NCBI RefSeq assembly: GCF_947498095.1
Contig: NZ_CANMJE010000002.1
Location: 124,001-188,000 of the forward strand
Reading direction: 5' to 3'
Length of the DNA stretch: 64,000 bases
Source: an uncultured Shimia sp.
GTDB lineage: Bacteria; Pseudomonadota; Alphaproteobacteria; Rhodobacterales; Rhodobacteraceae
In this document: in pieces, positions 8,389-62,523 of the stretch
Layout of the letters: every line of letters starts with the position of its first letter
Numbering within the stretch: the stretch's first letter is position 1
Made by a program: the position numbers and the translations under genes
The notes under the pieces: generated by a model
Told to the model about the DNA's origin: nothing
Database searches by the model: none
What the model saw: the letters and a program-made list of their open reading frames with translations, nothing else

Positions 8389-10281
8389 TCACCCCTTGGC
8401 ATAGCCTAGCGTTTGCAGTGCCTCGGTGATCTCGTCGAGGATCACCGGATCGTCGATGGTCGCGGGCATCTTCCACTCGGTGCCGTCCGCAATCGAGACC
8501 ATGGTGCCACGCAGGATCTTGCCCGAGCGTGTCTTAGGCAACCGGTCCACCACCACGGCCAGCTTAAACGCCGCCACGGGGCCGATTTTTTCGCGCACCA
8601 GTTTCACCACTTCTTTGACCACGTCTGCGTTGTCACGATCTGCGCCAGCATTCAGACACAAGAAGCCAACGGGCATCTGACCCTTGAGGCTGTCTGACAC
8701 GCCGATCACGGCGCATTCGGCGACATCCGGGTGGCTGGCCAGAACCTCTTCCATGCCGCCGGTCGACAGGCGGTGGCCTGCGACGTTGATGACGTCATCG
8801 GTGCGCGCCATGATGTAGACATAGCCGTCCTCATCCATCATGCCCGCATCACCCGTCTCATAGTAACCGGGGAAAGTGTTGAGATAGCTTTTCTTGAAGC
8901 GATCTTCGGCGTTCCACAGCGTCGGCAAGGTGCCCGGAGGCAGCGGCAGCTTGATTGCAATCGCCCCAAGGGTTCCGGCCTCAACCGGATGGCCCGCATC
9001 GTCCAGAATGGTCACATCGTAGCCCGGCATCGGCACGGTGGGTGATCCCAGCTTGATGGGCAGCTCCTCGATCCCTACCGGGTTCGCGGCAATCGCCCAG
9101 CCGGTTTCGGTCTGCCACCAGTGGTCAATCACCGGCACCTGCAGTTGATCCTGTGCCCAGACAATGGTGTCGGGATCGGCGCGTTCCCCGGCCAGGAACA
9201 CCTGCTCCAGACATCTGAGGTCATACTTTTTGACGAACTCACCAGCTGGGTCTTCGCGTTTTACGGCGCGGAAGGCGGTTGGCGCCGTAAAGAACGACTT
9301 GACGTTATGCTCCGAAATCACCCGCCAGAAGGTGCCCGCATCCGGCGTACCCACAGGCTTGCCCTCAAAGACGATGGTGGTGTTGCCGTGGATCAGCGGC
9401 GCATAGCAGATATAGCTGTGGCCCACGACCCAACCTACGTCTGAAGCGGCCCAGAACACATCACCGGGATCGACATTGTAGAGGTTCTTCATCGTCCAGT
9501 TCAGCGCCACCAGCTGACCGGCAGTGTGGCGGATCACGCCCTTGGGCTGGCCCGTCGTGCCCGAGGTATAAAGGATATAGGCCGGGTGGTTGCCTTCAAC
9601 CGGCACGCACTCTGCTGGCTCAACCCCATACTGAAACCCATGCCAGTTATAATCGCGGCCCTCTTTCAGATGGGCCACTTCCTGCTCGCGCTGGAAGATC
9701 ACGGTAAAGTCCGGTTTGTGCTCGGAGAGGTCAATCGCGCCGTCCAACAGCGGTTTGTAGTGCACAACGCGGCCCGGCTCGAGGCCACAACTCGCGGCAA
9801 TGATGGCCTTGGGCTTGGCGTCGTCGATCCGCACTGCCAGCTCGTTTGCGGCAAAGCCACCAAACACCACCGAATGCACTGCGCCCAGACGCGCGCATGC
9901 CAGCATCGCCTCGACCGCTTCGGGGATCATCGGCATGTAGATGATGACGCGATCGCCTTTCTCGATACCCTTGGCACGCAGCGCCCCGGCGAGGCTGGCG
10001 ACGCGGTTGCGCAGCTCAATATAAGAAATCGCACGCTTGGTGTGGGTGATCGGGCTGTCATAGATAATCGCGGTCTGCTCACCGCGTCCGTTTTCGACGT
10101 GGCGGTCAACCGCGTTCCAGCAGGTGTTCACCTTGGCATCGGCAAACCACTCAAACAGACCATCGCCTTTGTCGAACAACGCCTTCGAAGGGGCCTCGTC
10201 CCAGTCAATCGCCTTGGCAGCCTCCATCCAGAACCCCTCGGGGTCTTTCTTCCAGCCTTGGTAAACCTCTTTATAGGACAT
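8389..10281 (-). CDS. prpE: Propionate-CoA ligase (AMP-forming)
   Basis: This is a 630-aa ANL-superfamily ligase that activates propionate (possibly acetate) to propionyl-CoA. It has the adenylation core YTSGTTGQPKG, the WWQTETGW motif, and the C-terminal lysine motif LPKTRSGKILRGTM, whose Lys is the usual acetylation site. Overall similarity (MSYKEVYQGWKKDPEGFW start) fits PrpE rather than Acs. The start at 10281 has a strong GGAGGAGA site; the ORF track adds 21 residues. The upstream region carries a dense cluster of TTTGCAAA-like motifs also found at pccB and its regulator, so it is probably controlled by propionyl-CoA status. Confidence 0.93.
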   Translation of the reverse strand: MSYKEVYQGWKKDPEGFWMEAAKAIDWDEAPSKALFDKGDGLFEWFADAKVNTCWNAVDRHVENGRGEQTAIIYDSPITHTKRAISYIELRNRVASLAGALRAKGIEKGDRVIIYMPMIPEAVEAMLACARLGAVHSVVFGGFAANELAVRIDDAKPKAIIAASCGLEPGRVVHYKPLLDGAIDLSEHKPDFTVIFQREQEVAHLKEGRDYNWHGFQYGVEPAECVPVEGNHPAYILYTSGTTGQPKGVIRHTAGQLVALNWTMKNLYNVDPGDVFWAASDVGWVVGHSYICYAPLIHGNTTIVFEGKPVGTPDAGTFWRVISEHNVKSFFTAPTAFRAVKREDPAGEFVKKYDLRCLEQVFLAGERADPDTIVWAQDQLQVPVIDHWWQTETGWAIAANPVGIEELPIKLGSPTVPMPGYDVTILDDAGHPVEAGTLGAIAIKLPLPPGTLPTLWNAEDRFKKSYLNTFPGYYETGDAGMMDEDGYVYIMARTDDVINVAGHRLSTGGMEEVLASHPDVAECAVIGVSDSLKGQMPVGFLCLNAGADRDNADVVKEVVKLVREKIGPVAAFKLAVVVDRLPKTRSGKILRGTMVSIADGTEWKMPATIDDPVILDEITEALQTLGYAKG

Positions 10282-10330
10282 CACAGTCTCCTCCGAAATG
10301 TGTTGGGAAACTGTTACGCAAGGCAACAGC

Positions 10331-10489
10331 TTTGCAGCAAGCATCTTTCGCGACGCCGCGTCAGATTATCGCAAAATATTTGCAGTACTGGCGCAAATTT
10401 GCCTGCAAAGTTTTGCAAAGCGCCCGATATTGTCGGAAAGACTTTGAAGTTTATGCATTTTTGCAAATCTGCAAATATTTCACTGCAAA
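10331..10489. promoter_or_regulatory. Cluster of TTTGCAAA-like operator sites upstream of prpE
   Basis: Within about 160 bp there are two exact TTTGCAAA octamers (10412-10419, 10460-10467), a GCAAATTTGC palindrome (10393-10402) and near matches TTTGCAGC (10331), ATCGCAAA (10368), TTTGCAGT (10379), CCTGCAAA (10402), TCTGCAAA (10468) and ACTGCAAA (10482). The same octamer occurs in the promoters of the ScfR regulator and pccB in this window. ScfR-family regulators (RamB, MccR, PccR) are known to bind TTTGCAAA-type sites. Binding here is inference. Confidence 0.65.
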
Positions 10490-42318: not shown

Positions 42319-44067
42319 TCAATGGTCCAATTCAGGCCAGAGTTCGGGATCAAGTCCGTCGACAAAGGGTTTCAGAGCGTCTTTGACCACATGCCATCCA
42401 CCAAGGGATTTTTGGTGAACACCTTGGCGCACTTGAGACGCCGAAGCCGTGCGGACCCGCGCCTTGTTTTTTTCCGGGGCCGCCATTTGAGGTGCCCATT
42501 CCAGACCACAATGTTCGGCCATCCGCTTTGAGCTGCCCTCGACGTCGGATACAACCTCGCGGTAGTCCAGCGTCAGAATACGGTCGCCGTAGACCTCTTC
42601 CCAATGCTGGATGTAGCGTTTGTAAAGATTGGCCGTGTGCGCCATTGCGCCAAGATCGAACGTGTAGTTCATGCTGGGTGAGCTGAACGTGCGTCGCCAC
42701 ATTGACAGAGCGACGTCACGTGGGTCACGGCCAATGTGAATGACGCGCGCATTGGGCAGCGCGCTCAGCAGAAAGCCGACATAGGCATAGTTTGGTGGCA
42801 ACTTGTCGACAAAAGCTCGCGCGCCGTCATTCAGAGCAGGAACGCACGAGTAATAGTCCTCGGCAAACCGCTCAGGCTCTAGGGGCGCATCTTGATCCAG
42901 CAGGGCACGGCTATACGTCATCCCACCAGGTAACTCTCCGCAGGATTGTACATCTGGATGGGCAGACAAGATCATCTCAGTTAGTGTTGTGCCAGAACGC
43001 GGCTGGCCAATGACAAATATGGGTGTCAGCCCGTCATTTGGTGCAGGTATCTGATCAGCACTACCGATCGGAAACCGTTTGCAGATTTCGGCATACTCTG
43101 CATCCGCAGCAGCCCGGTCATAAGGTCTGGATTGCGCTGCCGCCGCGTTGGATTGAGCAAGAAAGTTTGCGGCCTCTGTGTACTCTCCTTTTTGAAACAA
43201 AAGGTTGCCCATAGCGAGTTTCAGATCAACCTGAACCGGTGATCTGCGGGGTGCGTTTGCCAACGCTTTGCGCAACCGTGGCTCAAGCGCCAGATTGTCC
43301 TCTTTCGACTGTAGGTGGACAAGTTGAATAAAGGCATCCCCGTGCAGTGGGTCGATTTCGAGAACCTTGTAGTGGTTTTCGATGGCCTCTTCCAAATGTC
43401 CGGAATCCGTTAGCGACGTCGCATACCGGTAACGGGCCAACAGGTGTTTCGGATCAATCTCCAACGCTGTTTTTATGGCGTCCAGAGCTTCGTCATGCTG
43501 TTCGAGACTGGACAGTGCAAATCCGAGATTGGACAAGAAGGACGGGTCCTTTGGGCTCAGCTCGCGTGCCTTTTGCAAATCTGCGACAGCGTTTTCGAAC
43601 TCTTCGATCTCGCAATAAGTGATGCCGCGCAGATTGTAGGCCTGTGCATGTATAGGGTCTGCGGCGATGGCCTGGTTGCAAACTTCGATCACCTCTTGTG
43701 GCATCTTGCGGCCCGTCATCGAGCCGGCCTTGTAGTGATAGAGCTCAGCCGGGTTCTCGCGACGGTTGATCAGCTTGTCGATCAACGCTTCGGCTTTGGC
43801 GTGTTCGCCTGCCATGATCATGGCCCGGATCAGGTTGTTCTGGAACCCTTCGTTGCTTGGTGTCAGCTTGAGTGCCTTGTTAAAGCTGGAAACAGCTTCG
43901 CGGGCCTTGCCCATCTGCGCATAGGCCGTGCCAGCAATGTTGAACAGTTCAGCGTCCTTGGGAAACTTCTTGCCCGCGGCACTGGCTGTTTTCGCAGCCT
44001 GGGCAAACTTGCCGTTGTTCAGCAATCCGACGGCTTTTTCCCAATGTTGACGAGCTGTGACGGCCAT
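42319..44067 (-). CDS. TPR-containing sulfotransferase (tandem copy 1)
   Basis: This 582-aa protein has the same architecture as the neighbour: TPR-like repeats (about 1-320), then a sulfotransferase domain with FVIGQPRSGTTLTEMILSAH and IHIGRDPRDVALSMWRRTF. Nearly every motif in copy 2 recurs here, including the C-terminal VRQGVH.KS.GGW and PELD ending, so the pair arose by tandem duplication and then diverged. It is expressed upstream of copy 2. The acceptor is unknown. Confidence 0.9.
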   Translation of the reverse strand: MAVTARQHWEKAVGLLNNGKFAQAAKTASAAGKKFPKDAELFNIAGTAYAQMGKAREAVSSFNKALKLTPSNEGFQNNLIRAMIMAGEHAKAEALIDKLINRRENPAELYHYKAGSMTGRKMPQEVIEVCNQAIAADPIHAQAYNLRGITYCEIEEFENAVADLQKARELSPKDPSFLSNLGFALSSLEQHDEALDAIKTALEIDPKHLLARYRYATSLTDSGHLEEAIENHYKVLEIDPLHGDAFIQLVHLQSKEDNLALEPRLRKALANAPRRSPVQVDLKLAMGNLLFQKGEYTEAANFLAQSNAAAAQSRPYDRAAADAEYAEICKRFPIGSADQIPAPNDGLTPIFVIGQPRSGTTLTEMILSAHPDVQSCGELPGGMTYSRALLDQDAPLEPERFAEDYYSCVPALNDGARAFVDKLPPNYAYVGFLLSALPNARVIHIGRDPRDVALSMWRRTFSSPSMNYTFDLGAMAHTANLYKRYIQHWEEVYGDRILTLDYREVVSDVEGSSKRMAEHCGLEWAPQMAAPEKNKARVRTASASQVRQGVHQKSLGGWHVVKDALKPFVDGLDPELWPELDH

Positions 44068-58084: not shown

Positions 58085-59485
58085 TTATTCGACCTCGTAA
58101 GGCAGAACGCCCCGCTGATTTTCATCAATGCTCAATCGCCGCTCAAGCGGCGGCACAGAGCGCTGGTGGCAATGGGTACGTTCGCAGATCCGGCAAGAAA
58201 TGCCGATCGGCTCAAACGCTTCCGGGGTCGAGATGTCCATGTGATCGGCATAAACCAGCGCGTCGGCGTGGCGGATTTCACACCCAAGGGCAATCGCATA
58301 GCGGCGCACAGGGGCGCCATAGTGGCCACCGGTTTTGGACACATCCCGCGCGAGACTGAAGTATCGGACCCCGTCCGGTGTCTCGGCCAGTTGCCGTAAG
58401 AAGCGACCGGGAGTTTCAAAGGCCTGATGCACATTCCATAAAGGGCAGGCGCCGCCAAATCGGGCAAATTGCAACCGCGTGGCCGAGTGGCGTTTGGTAA
58501 TGGTTCCTGCCTGATCGACGCGGACAAAAAAGAACGGAATGCCCTTGGCGCCGGGGCGTTGAAGGGTCGACAGCCGGTGCGCGACCTGTTCAATGGACGC
58601 GCCAAAACGGTTGGCCAGGACCTCCAGATCGTGACGCGTATCGCGTGCAGCCCCAAGAAATTGGCCATAGGGCATCATGGCCGCGCCGGCAAAATAGTTG
58701 GCCAGGCCAATCTTGGCGATGGCGCGCGCTGCGTCGGTTTGAAATCGCGCCAGATCGAGCGTTGCTTCGAGCAGCTTGTCGGACTGCAACAAGGCCACTT
58801 GCAGCAGCATTTGGAAGGTTTGGGTCTCGGTCGCTGCGCGATCAGATAGAGACAGTTTACGCGCCTCGGGGTCGTAGTGACGTAGCCGGTCTGCATCCAC
58901 GATCTCGACGGCCACCCCTTTGTCTTTCAATGCCCGGAACGCGGCAGCGCGAATGCCACCTTGATCCGTTGCCCGGGACGCAAAGTGTTCCGCGGCGTGG
59001 TCGACCGCATCAATGTAGTTGTCGCAATAGTGGAAAAAGTCGCGCACCTCATCCCAGGGGCTGGGCTGCATTTGCACATCTTCCCGCCCCAACGCTTCGT
59101 CGAGTGACGCCAGCCTTTCATGGGTCTGGCGATAGGCGCGGTGCAACTCCAAAAAAGCCCGGGCAAAGGCGGGTGCGTTAGAGGCGGTCAGCCTTAGATC
59201 TGCCAGAGGCGCAGGGCTTTCGGCCAGAATTGGGTCCGCCATAGCTTCGCGCATGTCGGAAACCAGCCGCTCGCTATCACCGGTGCTGAGTTCGGTGACA
59301 TCCAGCCCAAATTCTTGTGCCAGTGCCAGAACCACCGTGGTAGACACCGGGCGGTTGTTGTTTTCCATCTGGTTCAGATAGGGCAGGGACACGCCCAGTT
59401 TTTGGGCAAAGTCCTTTTGCGTCATCGAAAGGCGCGTGCGTATTTCACGCAGTTTTGCTCCGGCATAAAGTTTCTGAGTGGCCAT
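58085..59485 (-). CDS. pccR: Short-chain fatty acyl-CoA regulator (ScfR family, PccR-like)
   Basis: This 466-aa regulator has an N-terminal XRE helix-turn-helix (about 8-65, LREIRTRLSMTQKDFAQKLGVSLPYLNQMENNNRP), a central ImmA/IrrE-like domain without HExxH, and the C-terminal ScfR domain ending in ISCRICERTHCHQR. Families RamB, MccR and PccR sense acyl-CoA status; proximity to pccB favours PccR. Start 59485 (MATQKLYAG) is preferred over 59560. TTTGCAAA sites lie in its own promoter. Confidence 0.85.
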   Translation of the reverse strand: MATQKLYAGAKLREIRTRLSMTQKDFAQKLGVSLPYLNQMENNNRPVSTTVVLALAQEFGLDVTELSTGDSERLVSDMREAMADPILAESPAPLADLRLTASNAPAFARAFLELHRAYRQTHERLASLDEALGREDVQMQPSPWDEVRDFFHYCDNYIDAVDHAAEHFASRATDQGGIRAAAFRALKDKGVAVEIVDADRLRHYDPEARKLSLSDRAATETQTFQMLLQVALLQSDKLLEATLDLARFQTDAARAIAKIGLANYFAGAAMMPYGQFLGAARDTRHDLEVLANRFGASIEQVAHRLSTLQRPGAKGIPFFFVRVDQAGTITKRHSATRLQFARFGGACPLWNVHQAFETPGRFLRQLAETPDGVRYFSLARDVSKTGGHYGAPVRRYAIALGCEIRHADALVYADHMDISTPEAFEPIGISCRICERTHCHQRSVPPLERRLSIDENQRGVLPYEVE

Positions 59486-59533
59486 CGGGTCCTCGGCAGC
59501 ATCTGCAATGTGGCGTTGTTCAATGTGGTCGTG

Positions 59534-59561
59534 TTTGCACCTGCAAATGTAGCTTTGCAAA
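59534..59561. promoter_or_regulatory. TTTGCAAA-type sites upstream of the ScfR regulator
   Basis: TTTGCA-CC-TGCAAA (59534-59547) and an exact TTTGCAAA (59554-59561) lie 49-76 bp before the pccR start, suggesting autoregulation. Confidence 0.65.
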
Positions 59562-59590
59562 GCCGCGACGTCACCCGGTTTTTCGAGGCT

Positions 59591-60805
59591 TTAGCCTGCC
59601 AGTCCCTTTTCCCGCCAGATGACAAGACGAATGGTCGCAACCCCAAGCACCCCGGTTATCAGCATGATCCACAGCAACGGCATTGCCCCGCTTTCACGGG
59701 TCAAAACCGCCCCTGCCAGCATCGACAACCCGGCTCCGCCCCCAATCATGATCGCACCCGAAAGGCCCGAAGCGGTGCCCGCCAGATGTGGGCGCACCGA
59801 CAGCGCACCAGCCGTGGCATTGGGAATGGTCATGCCATTGCCAAGACCAACAAAGGTCATGAAGCCGAAAAACACCTCGGCACTGCCGTATCCAGCGACA
59901 AACAGCAGCATCGACGTACCGACGCCTGCCACATTGATCAGGCAGCCCCATTCCACCATCCGGTTGACCCCGATCCGTGCGGACAGCAGGCCCGAGAGGA
60001 AGTTGCCAAGGAAATAGCCGACCGCCGGTGCCCCAAAATAGAGACCCAGCATGGCGGGGTTCAGACCATAAAGCACGGTACCGACAAAGGGCGCCCCACC
60101 GAGATAGGCAAAGAAAGCCCCAGAACTCAGAGCTGACGCCATAGAATAACCCCAGAACCGCGGGCTGCGAATGAGCTCTGGGTATTCGCGGAACTGTTGT
60201 CCAAGGCTGAGCCCTGATGCCCTCCGGGTCTCGCCGAGATCCGCCCAGCATAGGGCAAGGATCGCAAGGCCCAAGGCAAACAGCATCCAGAAGTTTGCGT
60301 GCCAGCCAAATTGCGCCTCGAGGACTCCGCCAAGGACCGGACCCAGCATCGGCACCACGGTCATCCCCATGGTGACATAGCCGATCATTGAGGCCGCCTG
60401 ATCCGTAGGGACGACATCGCGCACGATGGCGCGGCTGAGCACCATGGCGGTTACAATGGCCGCTTGCGACATGCGAAAAATCAAAAATACCGTGGCATTG
60501 TGGGCAAACAGGCATCCCAAAGTCGCCAAGAGGAACAGGATCAGCCCCCAGATCACGACAGGTCGTCGCCCCACCTTGTCCGAGATCGGTCCGATCAGGA
60601 TCTGCAAAACCGCATTGACCCCAAGGTAGACGCCGACCGAGAGCTGCAGAATGCGATAGTCTGTCTGGAAATACGTCGCCATACCCGGCAGGCTGGGCAG
60701 AAAGATGTTCATGCTCAGCGCCGACAGACCCGCGAGCAGGATCAGAGTCGAGATATGGGGTGGTGTGCTACGATCAAGAAACCGCGCGTTATAATTCTGC
60801 GCCAT
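59591..60805 (-). CDS. Bcr/CflA-family MFS efflux transporter
   Basis: This 404-aa MFS protein has 12 helices. The loop 2-3 motif IGPISDKVGRRPVVIWG and the Bcr/CflA-type N-terminus (ISTLILLAGLSALSMNIFLPSLP) identify a drug:H+ antiporter. It lies 105 bp upstream of the regulator on the same strand and divergent from pccB. The intervening 185 bp hold the pccB promoter sites. Confidence 0.92.
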   Translation of the reverse strand: MAQNYNARFLDRSTPPHISTLILLAGLSALSMNIFLPSLPGMATYFQTDYRILQLSVGVYLGVNAVLQILIGPISDKVGRRPVVIWGLILFLLATLGCLFAHNATVFLIFRMSQAAIVTAMVLSRAIVRDVVPTDQAASMIGYVTMGMTVVPMLGPVLGGVLEAQFGWHANFWMLFALGLAILALCWADLGETRRASGLSLGQQFREYPELIRSPRFWGYSMASALSSGAFFAYLGGAPFVGTVLYGLNPAMLGLYFGAPAVGYFLGNFLSGLLSARIGVNRMVEWGCLINVAGVGTSMLLFVAGYGSAEVFFGFMTFVGLGNGMTIPNATAGALSVRPHLAGTASGLSGAIMIGGGAGLSMLAGAVLTRESGAMPLLWIMLITGVLGVATIRLVIWREKGLAG

Positions 60806-60881
60806 TCCCTAGTGCTAGGCCTCGGCGTCGGAAATGTCCATCGGCGCAGAACACGACGTCGCGACAGAGATAGTTTTCAAG

Positions 60882-60944
60882 TTTGCAATTAGCATAGCAA
60901 TGATTTTCCAAACTTTGCAAATTTGCGGGATTCTGCTTTGCAGC
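60882..60944. promoter_or_regulatory. TTTGCAAA-type sites in the pccB promoter
   Basis: TTTGCAAT-TAGC-ATAGCAAT (60882-60901) has the two-octamer, 4-bp-spacer form I recall for PccR sites in Rhodobacter sphaeroides; TTTGCAAA-TTTGCGGG (60914-60929) and TTTGCAGC (60937-60944) follow. A further GCAAATTTG lies at 60970-60978, close to the start codon. Confidence 0.7.
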
Positions 60945-60990
60945 ACGCGCCTGAGCGCATAGTGTCACGGCAAATTTGAGAGGACCTACC

Positions 60991-62523
60991 ATGAAAGATA
61001 TCCTTCAGGAACTGGAAGAGCGTCGCGCCACAGCCCGACTGGGTGGCGGACAGCGCCGTATCGACAGCCAACATGGCCGCGGCAAGCTGACGGCGCGTGA
61101 ACGTATTGAACTGCTGCTGGACGAGGACTCGTTTGAAGAGTTTGACATGTTCAAATCCCACCGCTGCACTGATTTTGGCATGGAAAAGGACAAGCCCGCA
61201 GGTGATGGCGTCATCACAGGCTGGGGTACGATCAACGGTCGTATGGTCTATGTCTTCAGTCAGGATTTCACCGTGTTTGGCGGATCGCTGTCAGAGACCC
61301 ACGCGGAAAAAATCTGCAAGATTCAGGATATGGCCGTTCAAAACGGTGCGCCGATCATTGGCCTGAACGATTCGGGCGGCGCCCGTATCCAAGAGGGCGT
61401 TGCCTCGCTTGCGGGATACGCAGAAGTTTTCCAACGCAACATCATGGCGTCGGGCGTCGTGCCGCAAATCTCGGTCATCATGGGGCCGTGTGCGGGGGGT
61501 GCTGTCTATTCGCCTGCCATGACCGACTTTATCTTCATGGTCAAAGACACTTCGTACATGTTCGTGACCGGCCCGGATGTGGTGAAGACCGTCACCAACG
61601 AAGTTGTCACCGCTGAAGAGCTGGGTGGGGCCTCAACGCACACCAAGAAGTCCTCGGTTGCGGATGGTGCGTTTGAAAACGATGTCGAAGCGCTGGCCGA
61701 AGTGCGCCGCCTTGTCGACTTCCTGCCGCTCAACAACCGTGAAAAGCCGCCCGTGCGTCCATTCTTTGACGAGCCGGGCCGCCTTGAGGCGTCGCTTGAT
61801 ACGTTGATCCCTGAAAACCCCAACACGCCTTACGATATGAAGGAACTGATCACCAAGATCGGGGACGAGGGCGATTTCTACGAAATTCAGGAAGACTATG
61901 CCAAGAACATCATCACCGGGTTCATGCGCCTTGAGGGCCAGACCGTGGGTGTTGTTGCCAATCAGCCGATGGTGCTGGCCGGCTGTTTGGACATTGACTC
62001 GTCGCGCAAAGCCGCACGGTTTGTGCGCTTTTGTGACTGCTTCGAGATCCCGATCCTGACGCTGGTCGATGTGCCGGGCTTCCTGCCGGGTACCAGCCAA
62101 GAGTATGGCGGCGTCATCAAGCACGGCGCAAAGCTGCTGTTTGCCTATGGCGAAGCCACCGTGCCAAAAGTGACCGTCATCACCCGCAAAGCTTACGGCG
62201 GTGCCTATGACGTGATGGCCTCCAAACACCTGCGCGGCGACTTTAACTATGCTTGGCCGACCGCCGAGATCGCTGTGATGGGCGCCAAAGGGGCGACCGA
62301 GATCATCCACCGTGCGGATCTGGGAGACGCCGAAAAGATCGCGGCGCACACCGCGGACTATGAAGACCGTTTCGCCAACCCCTTTGTGGCGGCAGAGCGT
62401 GGCTTTATCGATGAGGTGATCCAGCCACGCGGCACACGGAAACGCGTGGCTCGGGCCTTTGCGTCGCTTCGCAACAAAAAGCTCGAGAACCCCTGGAAGA
62501 AACACGACAACATTCCGCTCTAG
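60991..62523 (+). CDS. pccB: Propionyl-CoA carboxylase beta subunit
   Basis: The 510-aa carboxyltransferase subunit has the acyl-CoA region [12 protein letters not shown]-type sequence ([20 protein letters not shown]), the [12 protein letters not shown] motif and the carboxybiotin site [16 protein letters not shown]. It converts propionyl-CoA to methylmalonyl-CoA with the biotinylated PccA subunit, which is expected downstream beyond the window. Start 60991 follows GAGAGGA; the ORF track adds 5 codons. Confidence 0.95.

Follow-up and report, generated by a model that had tools for sequence, protein, structure and literature searches.

The PccR regulator of Rhodobacter (Cereibacter) sphaeroides reportedly recognises the motif TTTGCAAA-X4-TTTGCAAA, as set out by Carter and Alber in 2015; to our knowledge, prpE is not a target known from that work. 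In this species PccR is described as an activator, and deletion of pccR in R. capsulatus impairs growth on propionate (PMC10370305). Deletion of a putative PccR in Paracoccus denitrificans left growth and the two reporters tested (ccr, icl) unaffected (PMC10370305). A relative of solved structure is PrpR of Mycobacterium tuberculosis, which reads TTTGCAAA-N1-TTTGCgAA and controls the methylcitrate cycle (PMC3420887). The roles of the PrpR cysteines that ligate a [4Fe-4S] cluster have been described, as has the selectivity residue Phe155, which is replaced in the acyl-CoA pocket of R. sphaeroides PccR by a tryptophan (PMC6765138). A further ScfR regulator, the class 2 RamB of P. denitrificans, also has an operator of two near-identical boxes; these are 18 bp apart and serve a glyoxylate-cycle target (PMC10370305).

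A related locus is present in an uncultured Shimia sp., within a window (the whole stretch of DNA that was analysed) of 64,000 nucleotides. The best explanation of the locus as a whole, with a probability of roughly 0.85 judged from sequence comparison, is a PccR orthologue that would activate pccB, repress its own gene and control prpE. The PccR regulon itself is already known; what is newer is an operator layout that is better defined than the published one and differs from it, together with prpE as an additional predicted target. The genes at the pccR end of the window are as follows.

58085..59485, minus strand: pccR, ScfR-family regulator of 466 aa (ATG at 59485; assigned from Pfam domains and PrpR similarity)
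59591..60805, minus strand: MFS transporter of the Bcr/CflA subfamily, between pccR and pccB (TIGR00710, 246 bits)
60991..62523, plus strand: pccB, propionyl-CoA carboxylase carboxyltransferase subunit (PF01039, 660 bits; ATG at 60991)
65244-67292, downstream of pccB and past the window end: pccA (PCC_BT domain)
67918-70044, downstream of pccB and past the window end: methylmalonyl-CoA mutase, mcm (NF006944, 1270.6 bits)

The order is therefore pccR, the MFS gene and then pccB in the opposite direction, with pccB, pccA and mcm in a row. As in R. sphaeroides, an ScfR regulator is associated with pccB, pccA and mcm belong to the pathway, and TTTGCAAA operators lie upstream of pccB. The MFS gene separates pccR from pccB in 152 of the 162 related loci with pccB in reach, and the two genes are directly divergent in 8 of the 162. 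In a PccR tree rooted at its midpoint only, the MFS arrangement occupies 151 of 153 rows on one side and is missing from the 8 rows of the other. The MFS gene reads with pccR and has the pccB operator on its 5' side. It may share that operator, and a role tied to propionate or short-chain acids is conceivable.

By its sequence, the 466-aa protein is a true member of the ScfR family. It combines HTH_3 (PF01381), IrrE-like (PF06114) and C-terminal ScfRs (PF09856, 237.5 bits) domains, all above cut-off, and its best solved relatives are the PrpR structures (290 bits against 6cyy of M. tuberculosis). The ScfRs domain contains a C-X2-C-X4-C motif, and in the alignment all four PrpR [4Fe-4S] ligands (Cys363, Cys447, Cys450 and Cys455) are kept, with GGACPLW and CRICERTHC opposite GGSCPLW and CKICNRTSC of PrpR. 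At the position of PrpR Phe155 the Shimia protein has a tryptophan (QPSPWDEV against RPMPFEEV, with a chain offset of 57 confirmed with Cys447), the residue found in R. sphaeroides PccR (PMC6765138). The ScfRs domain, the PrpR similarity, the four cysteines and the tryptophan together bear out the preliminary description of an ScfR/PccR-like regulator, and the protein is predicted to be a PccR orthologue, that is, an acyl-CoA-sensing, [4Fe-4S]-containing ScfR regulator. Its start is conserved, with residues 1-466 matched in relatives, the nearest being from Shimia gijangensis (92%). Against the NCBIfam RamB model (NF038139) it scores 440.4 bits, below the curated cut-off of 700, which together with box spacing and target sets it apart from RamB.

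It is also the one full-length ScfR in its genome. A second ScfR-like protein, of 432 aa, is encoded on contig C8 (L002, 580-1878) and has an HTH, a weak ScfRs domain and weak similarity to a histidine-kinase region; it recalls Pden_1785 of P. denitrificans, which adjoins a two-component system (PMC10370305). At 37.6 bits it is divergent and was rejected as a PccR candidate.

The window has TTTGCAAA at 59554-59561 and TTTGCACCTGCAAA at 59534-59547 upstream of pccR, and TTTGCAAT at 60882-60889, ATAGCAAT at 60894-60901 and TTTGCAAATTTGC at 60914-60926 upstream of pccB. All of the operator strings named in the preliminary description are thus present. Their number says little: five exact octamers occur in the window against 1.94 expected, at least five were seen in 4 of 100 shuffles, and the 118 exact octamers of the 4.08-Mb source genome are near chance, being about as many as the expected rate predicts. 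An octamer excess across the genome was accordingly rejected as evidence, and since the counts are close to chance, the evidence must come from placement and conservation. Placement and conservation are not chance. Among 70 related loci, the 150 bp upstream of pccB and pccR hold 6.95 and 7.05 octamers per kb, respectively, versus 0.029 elsewhere in the same loci, an enrichment of about 240-fold; the octamer is found upstream of pccB in 68 of the 70 and upstream of pccR in 66.

At pccB the sites keep a fixed register, and the following elements are distinguished.

60874..60893: distal operator module, TTTTCAAGTTTGCAATTAGC in the window, consensus TTtGCagaTTTGCAaTTtgC (TTTGC at -40, -32 and -25)
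60914..60926: proximal operator core, TTTGCAAATTTGC (TTTGC at 0 and +8)
60937..60942, plus strand: putative -35, TTTGCA, consensus CTTtgg (anchored logo)
60960..60965, plus strand: putative -10, TAGTGT, consensus TAtggt, 17-bp spacer (anchored logo)

When 158 unique pccB promoters are aligned on the core without gaps, where the TTTGC background is 2.6 per offset, TTTGC stands at offset 0 in 146 and at +8 in 114, and further upstream at -32 in 98, at -40 in 80 and at -25 in 32. From these fixed offsets it follows that pccB has two TTTGC-N3-TTTGC modules 40 bp apart. The proximal one (TTTGCAAATTTGC) lies about 10 bp upstream of the putative -35 and the distal copy 40 bp further up; in three genomes (G087, G056 and G142) two perfect 13-mers are exactly 40 bp apart. 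Conserved in the distal stretch are TTTGCAAT at -32 and TTnGC at both -25 and -40. The 25, 32 and 40 bp distances do not all fit strict helical phasing, which was set aside. The pairing of TTTGCAAT with ATAGCAAT across four bases was likewise rejected, as an octamer at the N4 offset occurs in 0 of 153 pccB promoters of relatives and the arrangement is private to the source genome.

The promoter of pccR is built differently.

59534..59547: downstream operator boxes that overlap the putative -10/start region (minus-strand reading TTTGCAGGTGCAAA)
59546..59551, minus strand: putative -10, TACATT (anchored logo)
59554..59561: operator TTTGCAAA inside the putative -35/-10 spacer (the octamer used as anchor in relatives)
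59569..59574, minus strand: putative -35, GTGACG, with a 17-bp spacer to the -10 (CTTG/TTG conserved here in relatives)

The octamer could serve as an anchor in 181 of 199 unique pccR promoters. Thirteen bp upstream of it is a TTG in 102 of the 181 (CTTG in 86), and counted from the octamer there is a TA at +10 in about 55% and a T at +15 in about 57%; these positions point to a putative promoter with 17-bp spacing and TTTGCAAA inside the spacer. For pccR as for pccB the promoter elements were read off logos, and both -35 hexamers are poor in the window. GCAAA boxes follow at +25 in 45 and at +33 in 80 of the 181, with other layouts in some lineages, and Shimia relatives also have TTTGCA 14 bp after the octamer. 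With two or three layouts, the geometry is less uniform than that of pccB.

A third predicted target, prpE, lies near the other end of the window, and its site cluster at 10402-10475 was absent from the preliminary description.

8389..10281, minus strand: prpE, propionate--CoA ligase, predicted target (NF007815, 714.6 bits; TIGR02316, 682.1 bits)
10402..10419, read on the minus strand: proximal operator pair TTTGCAAA-N2-TTTGCAGG (an N2 pair in orthologues)
10460..10475: distal operator pair TTTGCAAA-TCTGCAAA with no spacer (N0), 48 bp from the proximal octamer

NF007815 and TIGR02316 are the best NCBIfam matches of the prpE product, although both scores are below the curated cut-offs. Of the 30 closest prpE orthologues, 23 have the arrangement TTTGCAAA-N2-TTTGCA, and of 23 prpE promoters that were aligned, 21 have a distal TTTGC at -48/-49. 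Within 260 bp upstream of prpE there are 7.05 octamers per kb versus 0.036 elsewhere, about 195-fold, and 28 of the loci of the 30 closest orthologues carry them. Among nine more distant genomes with pccR that were checked, only four have octamers at prpE, which suggests that this target is a lineage-restricted trait. None of 11 genomes in which pccR was not detected has an exact octamer at prpE. Downstream of the operator, at 10316-10390, two further features recur among the prpE promoters: a CTGCAAATTT...TTGCGATAATCTGACGC block, which is strongly conserved, and the element CTTGCC.

A pattern search, the only method used for the regulon within the source genome, finds the 13-mer TTTGCAAATTTGC exactly once, at pccB. 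The prpE site accounts for two of the copies with one mismatch, one on each strand, the distal pair at prpE being itself such a match. Another at window position 43572 falls inside a coding gene, and three more (L117-L119) are in or near genes without an evident link to propionate; all four were dismissed as targets. Across 199 genomes there are 126 exact 13-mers, of which 81 lie within 6 kb of pccR. An exact copy in genome G131 (L291 1501-1513; G131:C1:116586) precedes, by about 110 bp, a gene resembling methylmalonate-semialdehyde dehydrogenase, an enzyme that makes propionyl-CoA, and this gene adjoins one of LysR type. It is possible, from the sequence, that the 13-mer marks an extra PccR target there.

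The sites at pccB also depend on the presence of the regulator. Overall, 152 of 162 loci with pccR carry the exact octamer at pccB; its absence from pccB orthologues had been named in the preliminary description as grounds for refutation, and the search for such absence did not refute the proposal. Of 199 genomes of the family, 28 were taken as being without full-length PccR, and 21 of these had a readable region upstream of pccB. In a matched comparison limited to pccR identities under 76%, 57 of 64 loci with pccR have the octamer versus 2 of the 21 in which pccR was not found, absence being judged from assemblies (Fisher p 2.6e-11). One of the two exceptions, G161, has the pccB sites in a 460-contig assembly with no pccR detected; a contig ends 613 bp from its pccB, so the assembly may just have missed pccR. 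The association survives a count of independent pairs on supported branches of the PccB tree, with 6.1 of 8 pairs in the same direction, 0 opposite and 1.9 without a difference (median p 0.03).

Taken together, family membership, operon context, promoter conservation and loss of sites without pccR strongly support the autoregulated PccR predicted earlier to control propionyl-CoA carboxylase. PccR would read TTTGC half-sites as palindromic TTTGCAAA octamers, the TTTGC-N3-TTTGC direct repeat at pccB amounting to two abutting octamers. There it would bind two modules that precede the -35, the proximal one at 60914-60926 (centred at about -52) and the distal one 40 bp farther up, and activate pccB when propionyl-CoA rises, as suggested by activation in R. 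sphaeroides. At pccR the octamer lies between the putative -35 and -10, where a repressor would act, with further boxes over the -10/start region, and PccR therefore most likely represses its own gene. Sites upstream of the -35 at pccB and inside the spacer at pccR make pccB activation with negative autoregulation the simplest model. PccR may also control prpE, probably as an activator, so that the regulon would span propionate activation by prpE and propionyl-CoA carboxylation by pccB, perhaps on to pccA-mcm.

The main competing account makes PccR solely a repressor, which propionyl-CoA would release from all three promoters, with the upstream sites at pccB forming a loop or blocking another activator. 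The overlap of the pccR sites with the core promoter would suit it, and the RamB of P. denitrificans, another ScfR, has been suggested to both activate and repress (PMC10370305). However, in the aligned promoters both pccB modules occupy a place typical of an activator, upstream of the putative -35, and activation is the role described for R. sphaeroides PccR (PMC10370305), so a pure repressor seems improbable. Still less credible is that a different protein recognises the octamers, namely a second ScfR (RamB or MccR, for example). Sites of the TTTGCAAA type are common to several ScfR regulators (PMC6765138, PMC3420887), but the source genome has a single full-length one, and the pccB octamers are mostly absent where pccR was not detected, even where a weak ScfR-like paralogue remains. 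AT-rich promoter composition by itself could be entertained given that the window count is barely above chance; it is refuted by the fixed register over 158 pccB promoters, the 240-fold enrichment and the near absence of octamers at pccB in genomes without a detected pccR.

With PccR as activator of pccB and repressor of its own gene, one tentative extension, put at somewhat under even odds, is a two-module operator in which the distance between modules and the spacing within them are set for each promoter. A single PccR tetramer would bridge the modules, activating some promoters and repressing its own. The layouts that go with this bridging are N0 modules 40 bp apart at pccB, a spacer octamer with boxes 25/33 or 20-30 bp downstream at pccR, and an N2 pair with an octamer 48 bp up at prpE; the X4 operator would then be a derived exception.

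The preliminary description had noted spacers of 0, 2 or 4 bp. Of these, N0 prevails at pccB and N2 at prpE, a target that had not been seen then, whereas N4 is not conserved (0 of 153). This differs from R. sphaeroides, for which X4 is reported, in that the pccB operator here has N0 (TTTGCAAATTTGC) and a distal module at -40/-32. The Shimia system shares with PrpR the protein family, the octamer and the [4Fe-4S] ligands, but PrpR has N1 spacing and serves the methylcitrate cycle in place of the methylmalonyl-CoA pathway with N0 and N2. Among the loci fetched up to the time of the search, an exact TTTGCAAA-X4-TTTGCAAA pair occurs at one only (L263, position 3088), upstream of pccB in G051, a genome of 4.6 Mb in 7 contigs; 12-bp pairs of any kind occur at five loci. 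The X4 spacing belongs to the operator of one species and does not define the protein family.

For regulators that sense acyl-CoA and carry an Fe-S cluster, a family with poorly defined DNA recognition, the locus offers a precise operator and indicates that the spacing published for a single species is not a family rule. In Shimia, prpE would join the predicted PccR regulon, in what is otherwise ordinary metabolic regulation. PrpE also serves acrylate and DMSP breakdown in marine bacteria through the PrpE-AcuI pathway (PMC5651017).
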